A stretch of DNA of 64,000 nucleotides from Alphaproteobacteria bacterium (GTDB lineage Bacteria > Pseudomonadota > Alphaproteobacteria > Micavibrionales > Micavibrionaceae). The notes under the pieces are model-generated. The model made no database searches. It saw only the letters and a program-made list of their open reading frames with translations, and was not told where the DNA came from. The stretch spans positions 234,501 to 298,500 of the forward strand of contig NVTV01000001.1 in the NCBI GenBank assembly GCA_002401695.1, read 5' to 3'. A program made the position numbers and the translations under genes. Positions 6,717 to 18,672 of this stretch are shown piece after piece; within the stretch, counting starts at the first letter, position 1; every line of letters begins with the position of its first letter.

Positions 6717-7829
6717 TTATTCCGCAGCAACAGCAATCTTATCTGCTTTTTCACGAGGCCATGACGTAAATGTCATCACAGACTCATCAACACCGCAAAT
6801 TGTCGTACACAAACGTGCAGAAACAAGATATGGATCGGAGTTTGCACCCGGACGGCGATCTTCAAGATAGCCATAGCCCTGTTGAGCAACCAATTGTGGA
6901 ATACGGATAGAACATCCGCGATCCGCAGTGCCCGCTCTGAACGTATTGATATCACACGTTTCATGCGCGCCCGTTAAACGACGATCCAGCGCATGACCAT
7001 ACAGTTTAATATGCTGCTGATGCTTTTCACTCAATGCTTTGATTGCGGCATCAATAGCCTCTTTGCCCTTTGCCTTATCGCGCGTATCATTTGTAGAGAA
7101 GTTAGTGTGCATTCCTGCACCATTCCAATCGCCTAAAATAGGCTTGTTATGTATAGAAACGGTTACACCATAATCTTCGGCAATGCGATACAACAACCAA
7201 CGCGCAATCCAAACATCATCAGATGCTTTCATTGCGCCCGCGTCTTCGGTTCCACCACGATAACCAATTTGGAATTCCCATTGTCCGGGCATAACCTCCG
7301 CATTGATACCATAAAATAGAAGACCAATATCAAGACAGGCTTGTGCATGCTCTTCTACAATATCACGGCCATAGGCTTCATCCGCGCCAACGCCACAATA
7401 ATACGGGCCTTGAGGGCCGGGGAAACCTTGCTCTGGCCAACCAAGAGGCTGACGCGCTTTAAACAATGTATATTCTTGTTCAAAACCACACCATGGGTCT
7501 TGCTCTGCCGCACCGGCATCAAGCACAGCGCGTAGTTGTGCGCGTGAATTAGAGACATGCGGTGTTCCATCAGGGTTATAGACTTCTGCCATAACAAGAT
7601 AATTGCCGTCGCCGCGAATAGGATCAGGCACAAAATATACAGGCTTAAGGATGCAATCAGAATCGCTTCCCTCTGCTTGCAATGTTGATGATCCGTCAAA
7701 GCTCCACTCCGGGAAATCTTCAATCGATGGCTTTGACCCCAAATCCACGACACGCGCTTTTGAACGCAATTGGCGTGTAGGTAGGGCACCATCCAGCCAT
7801 ATATATTCAGCTAAAGTAAAATTAGACAT
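6717..7829 (-). CDS. glnII: Glutamine synthetase, class II (eukaryote-like)
   Basis: Makes glutamine from glutamate, ammonia and ATP. At 370 aa it is far shorter than GlnA type I (about 470 aa) and carries GSII motifs: YIWLDG and WSFDGSST near the N-terminus, GPQGPYYCGVG, the metal-binding MPGQWEFQIG, GDWNGAGMHTNFST and the ATP-site region TADRGCSIRIP. GSII forms pentamer pairs, is not adenylylated, and occurs in eukaryotes, actinomycetes and some alphaproteobacteria. The frame can be read from 7841, but a GGAGAG lies 5 bases before the ATG at 7829, and that start gives the usual short lead before YIWLDG. It stands alone, with a terminator downstream and palindromes upstream. Confidence 0.95.
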   Translation of the reverse strand: MSNFTLAEYIWLDGALPTRQLRSKARVVDLGSKPSIEDFPEWSFDGSSTLQAEGSDSDCILKPVYFVPDPIRGDGNYLVMAEVYNPDGTPHVSNSRAQLRAVLDAGAAEQDPWCGFEQEYTLFKARQPLGWPEQGFPGPQGPYYCGVGADEAYGRDIVEEHAQACLDIGLLFYGINAEVMPGQWEFQIGYRGGTEDAGAMKASDDVWIARWLLYRIAEDYGVTVSIHNKPILGDWNGAGMHTNFSTNDTRDKAKGKEAIDAAIKALSEKHQQHIKLYGHALDRRLTGAHETCDINTFRAGTADRGCSIRIPQLVAQQGYGYLEDRRPGANSDPYLVSARLCTTICGVDESVMTFTSWPREKADKIAVAAE

Positions 7830-13553: not shown

Positions 13554-14726
13554 ATGTCTGATTTTACTAATACAAAACGCCCCCCTAATGCAACCGCTGT
13601 TGTTATTTTATCCGATGGAACTTTGTTCTGGGGACATGGCATTGGTGCGGAAAACAAGTCAATTGGTGAAATTTGCTTTAACACCTCGATGACCGGCTAT
13701 CAGGAAATAATGACTGATCCGAGTTATGCGGGACAAATCATCACTTTCACATTCCCCCATATTGGTAATGTCGGCACAAATTCCGAAGATATCGAGACAA
13801 TTACCCCAGCGGCGCGTGGCCTTATTATTCGCGAAGATATAACTTCCCCATCAAACTGGCGTTCAAATAAAAATTTCGATGCGTGGCTGAAAGACCATAA
13901 CCTTGTGGGGATCAGCGGTATTGATACACGCGCCCTGACCAGACGCATAAGAGACCTTGGCGCGCCAAACGGAATTATCGCGCACAGCCAAGATGGCAAG
14001 TTCGATCTGGACGCCCTGTATGAAGAAGCAAAAAACTGGCACGGACTGGAAGGCGCAGATCTGGCTAAAGACGTTTCCTGCACCCAGAGCTATACTTGGG
14101 ACGAAGCATTGTGGAGCGCAGAAGGCGGCTATGCCCGTCAAGAAAACTCGACCCACAAAGTCGTTGCCGTTGATTTCGGTGCAAAACGCAATATCTTGCG
14201 CTGCCTCGCCGCAGCAGGATGTGATGTAACGGTTGTGCCTGCAAATGCAACTGCCGAAGAGATACTTGCCCATAAGCCTGATGGTGTATTCCTATCCAAT
14301 GGCCCAGGCGATCCGGCGGCAACAGGTGAATACGCCGTGCCGATGGTGCAAGATTTACTGGAAAAGAATATACCGATTTTCGGCATTTGCCTCGGCCACC
14401 AAATTCTTGCGCTGGCATTAGGCTGTAAAACAGAGAAAATGCACCTTGGACATCGCGGCGCGAATCAGCCCGTGCAAGACATCAAGACCGGACGCGTTGA
14501 AATCACATCACAAAACCATGGCTTTGTGGTTGTCGCCGACACACTGCCTGAGAATGTATCACAATCACATATCAGCCTGTTTGACGGATCAAACGAAGGC
14601 ATAACCGTAGAGGGAAAACCTGTGTTTTCGGTGCAATACCACCCTGAAGCCTCCCCCGGGCCACAAGACAGCCATTATTTATTTGATCGCTTCATGGACA
14701 ATATTAAAACTGCGAAAGCCGCATAG
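13554..14726 (+). CDS. carA: Carbamoyl-phosphate synthase small (glutaminase) subunit
   Basis: Releases ammonia from glutamine and passes it to CarB to make carbamoyl phosphate for pyrimidines and arginine. The 390-aa protein has the CPSase small-chain N-terminal domain (GTLFWGHGIGAE, TSMTGYQEIMTDPSYAGQ) and a class I amidotransferase domain with the nucleophile Cys in FGICLGHQILALALG and the His/Glu pair in QYHPEASPGP. A GGAG lies 10 bases before the start. It is followed after 3 bases by a carbonic anhydrase gene and then carB, so all three are very likely co-transcribed. No pyrimidine attenuator was seen in the short leader. Confidence 0.97.
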   Translation: MSDFTNTKRPPNATAVVILSDGTLFWGHGIGAENKSIGEICFNTSMTGYQEIMTDPSYAGQIITFTFPHIGNVGTNSEDIETITPAARGLIIREDITSPSNWRSNKNFDAWLKDHNLVGISGIDTRALTRRIRDLGAPNGIIAHSQDGKFDLDALYEEAKNWHGLEGADLAKDVSCTQSYTWDEALWSAEGGYARQENSTHKVVAVDFGAKRNILRCLAAAGCDVTVVPANATAEEILAHKPDGVFLSNGPGDPAATGEYAVPMVQDLLEKNIPIFGICLGHQILALALGCKTEKMHLGHRGANQPVQDIKTGRVEITSQNHGFVVVADTLPENVSQSHISLFDGSNEGITVEGKPVFSVQYHPEASPGPQDSHYLFDRFMDNIKTAKAA

Positions 14727-14729
14727 AAA

Positions 14730-15374
14730 ATGACACAGGATCTTATAAAAGGATTGGAAGCATTTAAACGCGATCAATACAGTGACGCGGGTGAAAATTT
14801 AATGCCGCGCCTTGTGAAAGAAGGACAATCACCCAAGTATTTTATTATCAGCTGTATCGATTCACGCTCCAACCCCAGCACAATTTTCCGGACACAACCC
14901 GGATCATTCTTTGCACATAAAGCCATGGGCGCGATTGTTCGCCCCTATAAACAAGGCACCGCACTTTCTGCGGCGTTGCAGTTTGCATTAAACCATAACA
15001 ACGTTAAACAAATTATTGTCTTAGGACATACAAACTGCGGTGCAATTCAAGCACTTGTAGAGAATCTTGATGATCCTGAAATATCCAGCTTCATCAATGT
15101 AGTGAAAGATGCATTAACCAAAGCCCAGACATGTTGCAATGAACACAATAAAATCATCGCACGCACAGAACAAGAAGTTGTCCTTGAAAGTGTTGAAAAC
15201 CTTAAAAATTACCCCTCTGTAAAACAGGCACTACAAGAAAAACGTGTCACAATCTCACCATGGATTTTCGACATGGAAGAAGGCAACCTGTTAGAACACA
15301 ATACCAACAGCAATGAATTTGAAATCATAAGCACCAATGAACCTATAAAAGAGGATCACAAAAACCATGCCTAA
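14730..15374 (+). CDS. Beta-class carbonic anhydrase between carA and carB
   Basis: Interconverts CO2 and bicarbonate. The 214-aa protein keeps the beta-CA zinc site: Cys and Asp/Arg dyad in CIDSRSNP (about residues 42-49) and His/Cys in GHTNCGA (about 100-106). It is diverged elsewhere; the usual RNAGN segment reads HKAMGA. The start is 3 bases after the carA stop and the end overlaps the carB start by 8 bases, so translation of the three genes is probably coupled. CarB uses bicarbonate as substrate, so a dedicated anhydrase in this operon is chemically sensible. That functional link is inference; the overlap and motifs are seen directly. Confidence 0.9.
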
Positions 15375-18300
15375 ACGTACCGACATAAAATCCATCTGTA
15401 TTATCGGCGCTGGCCCCATTGTTATTGGGCAAGCTTGTGAATTTGATTACTCCGGAACGCAAGCCTGTAAGGCACTGCGCGAAGAAGGATATCGCATTGT
15501 CCTGATTAACTCCAATCCTGCGACCATCATGACCGACCCTGATATGGCCGACGCAACATATGTTGAACCGATCACCCCCGCTGTTGTTACAAAGATATTA
15601 GAAAAAGAACGCCCTGATGCTCTTCTACCAACGATGGGCGGACAAACAGCCCTGAATACGGCATTAGCCTTGGATGAAGACGGAACACTAGAACGTTTAG
15701 GCATTGAGCTGATCGGCGCACGCGCAGAAGTTATCGACAAGGCAGAAGACCGCGAGAAATTTAAAGTCTGTATGGATGAACTAGGCCTCGAATCCGCGAA
15801 CTCTATGTCTGTACATAACATGGACGAAGCCAAAGAAGCCCTAGAGAAAATCGGTCTTCCAGCGATTATGCGCCCTTCCTTTACTATGGGTGGCACAGGC
15901 GGCGGTATTGCTTACAACAAAGATGATTACGAGCGCATCGTCCGCGATGGTCTTGATGCATCCCCAACAACAGAAGTTCTGGTTGAAGAATCTCTACTCG
16001 GTTGGAAAGAATTTGAAATGGAAGTGGTTCGCGATAAGAACGACAATTGTATAATTATTTGTTCCATTGAAAATATTGACCCAATGGGTGTGCATACTGG
16101 TGATTCTATCACTGTTGCCCCTGCCCTGACCCTAACCGATAAAGAATATCAAATTATGCGTAATGCCTCTCTTAAGGTTTTGCGCGGTATTGGCGTTGAG
16201 ACGGGCGGATCAAACGTGCAGTTTGCCCTGAACCCTGATGATGGGCGCATGATTGTGATCGAAATGAACCCACGTGTTTCAAGATCATCGGCGCTGGCCT
16301 CTAAGGCCACGGGTTTCCCTATTGCCAAAATCGCAGCAAAACTAGCGGTCGGTTATACGCTGGATGAACTGGATAACGACATCACAGGCGGTAAGATCCC
16401 TGCGAGTTTCGAGCCCACAATTGACTACATCGTCACAAAAGTACCACGCTTTGCTTTCGAAAAGTTCAAAGGCAGTGATGCCTATCTGACCACGTCAATG
16501 AAATCCGTTGGTGAAGCGATGTCCATCGGTCGCTGCTTCGAAGAATCGTTGCAAAAAGCCATGCGCTCTTTAGAAAAAGGCCTGACAGGTCTTAGCCCGA
16601 TTTACATTGGCGGCGCGGATGATGAAAATCCTGACGCACAAAAAGATGCTCTATTAGCAGCCATTGCGAAACCAACACCCCAGCGTATCTTGTATATCGC
16701 ACAAGGTTTCCGCCACGGCCTGTCACTGGAAAAAATACACGCGATCTCTAAATATGACCCATGGTTTTTGGAGCGCATCGAGAATATTATCAACGCAGAA
16801 AAAGGTATCCTTGATAACGGCCTGCCTGTTGATGCACAAGGATGGATGGCGATTAAACGCCTTGGGTTCTCTGATGCACAACTCGCAGATCTGGTTGGTG
16901 TTACCGAAGAAAACGTCCGTACTGCCCGCCTGACACATGATGTGCGCCCCGTATACAAACGCGTGGATAGCTGCGCCGCAGAAATCCCGTCAGAAACGCC
17001 GTATCTTTATTCCACTTATGAAGGTAACGGATTAGAGCCTGCAGAAAATGAAATCAATGCAACAGACCGCGAGAAAATAATCATCCTCGGCGGAGGCCCA
17101 AACCGTATTGGCCAAGGGATTGAATTCGATTATTGCTGCGTTCATGCGGCGTATGCCCTGAAAGAAGCAGGTTACGAAACCATTATGGTGAATTGTAACC
17201 CCGAAACCGTTTCCACCGACTATGACACCTCTGACCGTCTGTATTTTGAGCCATTAACCGAAGAAGACGTTATTGAGCTTATAAAGGCCGAGCAAGGCAA
17301 CGGCAGCGTAAAAGGCGTGATTGTACAACTTGGTGGGCAAACACCGCTTAAACTGGCTCAAACGCTGCTGGATAACAACATTCCGATCCTTGGAACCGAC
17401 CCAGATGCGATTGATTTGGCGGAAGACCGTGAACGCTTTCAACAATTGCTGATCGATTTAGACCTGAAGCAACCTTCAAACGGCCTCGCCCGCACAAAAG
17501 AAGAAGCGATGGATATTGCCGAAGGCATTGGCTTCCCACTGGTTATTCGCCCGTCTTATGTTTTAGGCGGCCAAGGCATGGAAATCGTCCATAGCCTATC
17601 CGAGCTAGAGCGTTATATAAGCACTGCGGTTAAAGTATCAGGCGACTCCCCTGTTTTGCTTGATCGTTATCTGAAAAGCGCGATTGAGCTGGACGTTGAC
17701 GCACTATGTGATGGAGAAGATGTTTATGTCACAGGCATCATGGAACACATCGAAGAAGCCGGCATTCACTCCGGTGATTCTGCGTGTGTTCTACCGCCGC
17801 ATTCCCTATCTGCCGAAACCATGAAGAACATTAACGAACAAACCATCACATTGGCCAAAGCTCTAAATGTTAAAGGGCTGATGAATGTTCAGTTCGCTAT
17901 TCGTAAACATGATGAAACAGGCGAAGACGAGATTTATATTATCGAAGTTAATCCACGCGCATCCCGTACAGTACCTTTCGTTGCTAAAGCAACGGGTGTT
18001 CCTGTTGCAAAAATTGCGGCGCGGATTATGGCTGGTGAGAAACTCAGCGCTTTTTCCGACATCCTTGTCGGGATGAGTGATCAACATTACGCCGTGAAAA
18101 CCCCCGTATTCCCGTTCAATAAATTCCCCGGCGTTGACCCATTGCTAGGCCCTGAAATGAAATCAACAGGCGAAGTGATCGGACTGGACAAAGATTTGGC
18201 ACATGCCATCGCAAAATCCCAGATCGGCGCAGGCAGTAACTTGCCCACCAGCGGAACAGTCTTTATCTCCGTTAAGGATGAAGATAAAGACGCCCTATTG

Positions 18301-18672
18301 CCGCTTGCAAAAGAATTGGCAGACATAGGCTTCGACATTGTAGCAACAGGCGGCACGTGTCGTTTCCTAAATGAACATAGCATCAAAGCCAATCACATCA
18401 ATAAAGTGATGGAAGGTCAACCACACGTCATCGATTCCATCATTAATGGTGATATTAATCTGGTCATCAATACCACAACCAAAAGCACACAAGCCGTATC
18501 GGATTCATCATCCATCAGACGGATGGCTCTGATGAATAAAATCCCTTACTACACGTTGATTACTGCGGCGACGGCAACAGTAAAGGCGATTCATGCGCTA
18601 AAAGACCGTGACATTGATGTCGCGCCCCTACAAAGCTATTTCGTGAATAAGGACAAAAGCAAAGCAGCTTGA
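15367..18672 (+). CDS. carB: Carbamoyl-phosphate synthase large subunit
   Basis: Makes carbamoyl phosphate from bicarbonate, ammonia from CarA and two ATP. The 1101-aa protein has the usual duplicated ATP-grasp halves: the first starts at [18 protein letters not shown], the second at [18 protein letters not shown] (about residue 575), with an MGS-like regulatory domain at the C-terminus (about 960-1095, [15 protein letters not shown]). The start codon lies inside the end of the upstream carbonic anhydrase gene. A strong terminator follows about 60 bases after the stop, closing the carA–anhydrase–carB unit. Confidence 0.98.

Follow-up and report, generated by a model that had tools for sequence, protein, structure and literature searches.

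The closest described relatives of the carbonic anhydrase (CA) reported here are beta-class enzymes of the plant and CcaA kind, represented by the pea enzyme (PDB 1EKJ) and Synechocystis CcaA (5SWC). Other systems invite comparison: E. coli Can (YadF), which supplies biosynthetic bicarbonate, together with CynT-like CAs; the transporter SbtA with its PII-like partner SbtB, known from cyanobacterial CO2 concentration; and mitochondrial CA VA, an alpha-class enzyme. According to one source (PMC6022934), CA VA supplies bicarbonate to carbamoyl-phosphate synthetase I, the urea cycle is disrupted in people deficient in CA VA, and the N-terminal half of CarB makes carbamate from ATP, bicarbonate and ammonia. 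Two further papers report that yeast CA mutants require raised CO2 partly owing to carbamoyl-phosphate synthetase (PMC9320139), and that Campylobacter jejuni relies for CO2 hydration on CanB, a CA that promotes growth (PMC5438104). For CA VA the coupling is by compartment, whereas at the locus described below it would be by operon. The literature searched, which leaves most subscription journals outside, yielded among the matches listed no paper on a CA gene within carAB.

The window, meaning the whole 64,000-nucleotide stretch of DNA that was analysed, carries a beta-CA gene between the two genes for carbamoyl-phosphate synthase. The features of this locus are as follows.

13554..14726, + strand: carA, carbamoyl-phosphate synthase small (glutaminase) subunit; PF00988 175 bits and TIGR01368 471 bits, both above cut-offs
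14730..15374, + strand: beta-class CA of 214 aa, member of the slot ("car-linked") clade by Pfam match, model and tree
14853..14867, + strand: first zinc/catalytic motif, C42-x-D44-x-R46, from translation and alignment
14916..14933, + strand: HKAMGA loop, residues 63-68, replacing RNxAN, from alignment A1 and site counts
15027..15038, + strand: second zinc motif, H100-x-x-C103, from translation and alignment
15350..15355, + strand: AGAGGA, candidate carB ribosome-binding site within the CA gene, read from the sequence
15367..18672, + strand: carB, carbamoyl-phosphate synthase large subunit; PRK05294 1713 bits, TIGR01369 1495 bits
18724..18768, + strand: hairpin and T-run 3' of carB, likely operon terminator; fold -16.2 kcal/mol, z -3.2

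All three genes are read head to tail on the + strand, and their products score well above curated Pfam cut-offs, with CPSase_sm_chain/GATase domains in CarA and CPSase L domains in CarB. The open reading frame coordinates bear out the first-pass annotation, which placed the CA start 3 bases past the carA stop and an 8-base overlap between the CA gene and carB. A yqeY-like gene lies divergently upstream of the locus and greA lies downstream. Direct reading found no AGGAG-like element 5' of the CA start at 14730, so translation of the CA may depend on that of carA. The candidate ribosome-binding site of carB is located 11 bases upstream of that gene. The annotation also held that one terminator serves the set. 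The hairpin and T-run after carB agree with this; none of 200 shuffles folded equally well. However, a terminator consensus scan restricted to loops of 3-8 did not return this hairpin; its output over the two strands was 11 weak sites, against 6.6 expected, and 4 of those on the + strand lie inside the three genes. A single terminator for carA-CA-carB is thus plausible but unproven.

The identification of the middle frame as a beta-CA with Cys-Asp-Arg and His-Cys zinc motifs, also made in the annotation, is secure. The protein matches PF00484 with 129.4 bits against a cut-off of 25.7, and translation and alignment place the intact Cys/His/Cys zinc ligands and the Asp-Arg pair at C42, D44, R46, H100 and C103. 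An AlphaFold2 model of the protein has a pLDDT of 90.7. In Foldseek searches with this model the best PDB matches were the beta-CAs 5swc and 1ekj, and the best 50 rows were all beta-CA entries. The fold is shared with the plant and CcaA enzymes (TM 0.75-0.84 for the 11 top chains), as are the zinc ligands, the Asp-Arg pair and a conserved Gln before the first Cys, but sequence identity to those chains is only 25-27%. The window protein also differs from them in carrying HKAMGA where they have RNxAN, and in the position of its gene within carAB. These features predict that the window CA is catalytically active.

E. coli Can and the CynT-like enzymes share the Pfam Pro_CA domain with the window CA, which reaches only 63.2 bits with PRK10437, the carbonate dehydratase model, where 251 bits are required. 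The residues that we take to be Trp39 and Gly41 of HiCA, the bicarbonate-inhibited type, correspond to Ile39 and Ser41 in the window CA. Assignment to the bicarbonate-inhibited type II, as in HiCA and E. coli Can, was rejected on the basis of these pocket residues and the unreached equivalog cut-off.

The first-pass annotation was right that HKAMGA stands in place of the usual segment, and the substitution proved general among CAs of the slot type. We use "slot" for the gap between carA and carB, G and L handles for genomes and loci, and f1-f5 for the five families of the order. Of 55 slot-type rows, 41 have K at position 64, 48 have M at position 66 and 49 have A at position 68. At the same sites the 28 other CAs have mostly R (26), V/A/I (27) and N (18). 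The loop characterises the window-type subgroup; other CAs carry RNxAN. On the alignment, M66 matches the position that is presumably Val184 of the pea enzyme, and F85 matches what we take to be pea Tyr205.

Of the 53 slot-type rows whose motifs can be read, 50 keep the full catalytic set C/D/R/H/C. Values of dN/dS were 0.05-0.13, at high dS, for four pairs of related slot CAs, and a fifth pair was saturated; the protein is under purifying selection in those four pairs of relatives. Two slot homologues have lost the zinc ligands and remain open frames: one in L042, with C-E-C-N-S at the five positions, and one in L149 (near 6741-7361), with D-D-A-H-S. In L038 a second tandem CA copy in the carA-carB gap (L038_2) has Cys in place of the catalytic Arg.

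L042, 5077-5769, - strand: CA homologue without zinc ligands, in the carA-carB gap

The model of the L042 protein nevertheless has the fold of a beta-CA (pLDDT 83.9) and finds beta-CAs as its best PDB matches, an outcome favoured by the intact CAs contained in the alignment from which it was modelled.

The annotation had proposed a search of carA-X-carB neighbourhoods for the same insert. Of 61 genomes first drawn from the window's family, 30 contain a window-type CA (at least 48% identity over the matched part). In 25 of these 30 the gene has carA on one side and carB on the other within a single contig, and in three (G023, and G044 and G053 near contig ends) it adjoins only carB; carA of G023 is 269 kb away from the CA-carB pair. 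In the remaining two, G018 and G060, the CA gene is near neither carA nor carB on the contig examined. A wider set comprised 119 genomes of the order with a completeness of 85% or more. Of these, 50 (48 in f1, 2 in f3) have a same-strand Pro_CA gene upstream of carB at a distance of no more than 6.5 kb. Six more (G007, G009, G028, G081, G095 and G102) have carA and then a CA gene, which the searches left unpaired with carB on broken contigs. A CA is thus found at carAB in 56 of 119 genomes, distributed as 54/91 in f1, 2/6 in f3, 0/7 in f2, 0/13 in f4 and 0/2 in f5.

Both flanks are present on one contig in 51 of these 119 genomes, including G078, where the carA end is a 22-aa match at the contig edge. 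Five more show one side only per contig: G023, G044 and G053 on the carB side, G102 on the carA side, and G046, which has two CAs on two contigs, one beside carA and one beside carB. The other 63 genomes have no CA at carAB, although contig breaks may hide some, and these absences are scattered on the CarB tree. In G055, which belongs to the window's genus, carA and carB (L162) are 47 bases apart and no CA separates them; the slot of G022 is also without a CA. In 16 of 31 readable loci (the window and 30 others), no more than 20 bases lie between the carA stop and the CA start, or the two genes overlap. As in the window, the CA genes of L027, L028, L039 and L047 overlap carB by 8 bases. At L045 (G037 C33) the matches to CarA and to CarB run across different frames, which probably reflects sequencing or assembly errors.

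Among the matches listed, none of 100 genomes of the class outside the order has a CA and carB closer than 17 kb. This control counted only CAs found with the A1 profile at E ≤1e-15, in genomes for which carB was also on record, so that other CA types could be missed; outside-order genomes are often in many contigs, and breaks can hide linkage both inside and outside the order. In a scan of other phyla (80 loci, tblastn E ≤1e-8, some loci short, not a census), carA or carB was within about 6 kb of the CA in 5 of 6 Micavibrio-type loci and in none of 74 others, again among the matches listed. NCBI taxonomy places Micavibrio in Bdellovibrionota.

The arrangement is therefore not general across the class. 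An ordinary chance neighbour is ruled out by the presence of a CA at carAB in 56 of 119 genomes inside the order against 0 of 100 outside it, among the matches listed. The gene does not lie at random places in relatives, the outcome that the annotation had named as contrary to its reading; its position is conserved across genera and in families f1 and f3. We propose to call this group the carAB-associated CA subfamily.

The slot also holds other genes. The loci used for this gap analysis were mostly chosen for having a CA there, and the list of inserts is not a frequency count.

L062:2297-3298, + strand, and L062:3295-3648, - strand: SbtA and a convergent PII-like gene; also in L043, L145, L157 and L158
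L055:237-1904, - strand: transporter of the SulP family with a STAS domain, located in G047 between carA and the CA gene
L143:1865-2626, + strand: PEMT/LmtA-like protein of 253 aa in the slot; also in L028, L032, L041, L046 and L067

A family search found an SbtA-type sodium/bicarbonate transporter in the slot of five genomes (G030, G057, G035, G071 and G074), with 297 and 299 bits to PF05982 in the two tested. Each is accompanied by a PII-family gene on the opposite strand (PF00543 in two tested), which by analogy may be SbtB; in these relatives a pair resembling that known from cyanobacteria stands beside carAB. SbtA is present in 12 of the 119 order genomes, five of which have it in the slot; a case in G105 lies at contig ends and was not counted. 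CA and SbtA occur together in G035, G071 and G074. In G030 and G057, which have SbtA, genome searches gave no beta-CA match, and in G030 no alpha-CA match either. The neighbours of slot SbtA, a PII-like gene in all five and a GNAT-like gene in three, suggest a single insertion in their common line.

The SulP transporter of L055 was considered as a BicA-type transporter and rejected, with 264 bits against a BicA cut-off of 880. The PEMT/LmtA-like protein occurs at six loci, two of which apparently belong to one genome, and the L143 copy reaches 199 bits with the LmtA model of Leptospira, below its cut-off of 325. Further slot genes, judged by the look of their sequences only, are GxxExxY-like, GNAT-like, DnaQ-like and spermidine-synthase-like, the last with no Pfam match. 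Many unrelated inserts were seen in this gap (L023, L026, L032, L049, L043, L060, L157, L063, L154 and L158), and the junction seems tolerant of insertion.

A CA tree was built from 82 of 85 rows, leaving out the fragments L053_2, L151 and L051; its free rows were a 30-row sample made up of 20 loci, L002, L034, L061 and 7 rows from six further loci. The CarB tree kept 52 of 58 rows, omitting those that were short or without an initial Met. A single clade of 55, with support (96/78) just under the strict mark, takes in every one of the 52 slot rows of the CA tree. Its three non-slot members are L172 of family f4 and two CAs for which carAB was not seen nearby, L034 and L061; two f2 CAs join next (99/85).

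The window CA groups with those of L029, L043, L060, L157, L064 and L158 (100/92), several of which sit elsewhere on the CarB tree. The full-length CarBs closest to that of the window are from L146 and L162 (both 87%), and L162 has no CA while the L146 CA is 32% identical. Conversely, the closest CAs to the window's (62-64%) adjoin CarBs of 71-79%. Across 37 relatives, CA and CarB identity to the window gave a Spearman coefficient of -0.24 (p=0.15), whereas CarA and CarB identity gave 0.48 (p=0.003). Vertical inheritance of the window's CA with its CarB is supported neither by the two trees nor by the identity correlation. The simplest reading is that the CA, whose identity does not follow that of CarB, seems to have been exchanged between lineages while keeping its place at the junction, perhaps through recombination in the flanking car genes.

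The window genome encodes two other CAs: an alpha-CA (G000:C10:12146-12763) and a second beta-CA (L002:1384-2073, on G000 C1). The latter reads CSDAQ, with Gln for the catalytic Arg, and adjoins a LysR regulator and a CitMHS-type transporter. Searches for alpha- and beta-CAs found no other beta-CA in 46 of the 56 slot-CA genomes, and neither another beta-CA nor an alpha-CA in 34 of 56. The slot CA therefore probably serves general bicarbonate supply in those 46 genomes as well, and a role confined to CarB is unlikely there.

The explanation that we consider probable is that an active beta-CA is co-expressed with CarA and CarB and keeps bicarbonate non-limiting for arginine and pyrimidine synthesis. 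CA, CarA and CarB would share a single message whose translation is closely spaced or coupled, and the CA would convert CO2 to bicarbonate whenever carbamoyl-phosphate synthase is produced. The first substrate of CarB would then not be limiting for either pathway at ambient CO2, and co-production would tie supply to demand; in most slot-CA relatives the same protein would probably serve other bicarbonate users too. The explanation is favoured by the conserved position, the intact catalytic residues, the low dN/dS values and the five slots with SbtA, including that of G030 with its lack of an alpha- or beta-CA match, and by the missing catalytic Arg in the window's other beta-CA. Against it stand the unrelated slot genes, the 63 genomes with no CA at carAB, the alpha-CA and second beta-CA of the window genome, the two zinc-less homologues and the copy without the catalytic Arg, and the unlinked cases in G023, G018 and G060. 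The coupling to carbamoyl-phosphate synthesis proposed in the annotation is thus supported in part, by gene order, conserved position and SbtA. It is narrowed by the absence of the arrangement elsewhere in the class (0/100 among the matches listed), by the improbability of a CarB-only role in 46 of the 56 genomes, and by the 3 of 53 readable rows without the full catalytic set.

Alternatively, the junction could be an insertion-tolerant spot in a well-expressed operon, where a housekeeping CA landed once with no mutual dependence. The unrelated slot genes support this, as do the 46 genomes in which no other beta-CA was found, so that the slot CA must serve general needs; the single clade of 52 slot rows and three others would allow one old insertion followed by inheritance. 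Against it, 56 of the 119 genomes have a CA at carAB and five slots hold SbtA, another bicarbonate gene, in a count across the order that covers these two kinds of insert. In addition, the identity of the CA does not follow that of CarB while that of CarA does, so that the CA seems to have been exchanged or replaced and yet keeps its place. We regard this account as unlikely. Less credible again, and in our judgement doubtful, is a bolder proposal in which the junction is a dedicated bicarbonate-supply slot of the order, with CA and SbtA/SbtB cassettes gained, lost and exchanged in place, and in which the CA-like product is an accessory subunit of the synthase whose zinc-less versions are kept.

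A role for the CA as a third, bound subunit of carbamoyl-phosphate synthase, passing bicarbonate to the N-terminal half of CarB, is very improbable. Tight gene coupling and a subfamily of its own would fit such a subunit, and open frames for zinc-less proteins in L042 and L149, the former still modelled with the CA fold, would be expected if binding matters apart from catalysis. But the CA varies independently of CarB, the closely related CarB of L162 adjoins no CA, and bicarbonate diffuses fast, so that channelling is not needed. There is scarcely any likelihood that the HKAMGA loop signals a different reaction on the beta-CA fold, for example hydrolysis of CS2 or COS. The loop is altered in most slot proteins, including M66 at the pea Val184 position, and CS2 hydrolase is a distant match (E 5e-4). 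Yet 49-50 of the 53 readable slot rows retain the zinc ligands, the Asp-Arg pair and the Gln that corresponds to pea Gln151, the closest solved relatives are CAs, and the carAB and SbtA context fits bicarbonate.

If the bicarbonate-supply reading holds, the gene order, with a CA or in a few relatives SbtA between the car genes, suggests that substrate supply has been built into the operon. It may offer a testable route to more carbamoyl-phosphate in engineered strains. The relatives with a CA, SbtA, both, a zinc-less CA or nothing in the slot constitute a natural experiment. Mutants have usually been the basis for inferring which of the bicarbonate-consuming steps becomes growth-limiting under slow CO2 hydration; here a natural gene order, with two kinds of bicarbonate gene in one operon slot, points to carbamoyl-phosphate synthesis.
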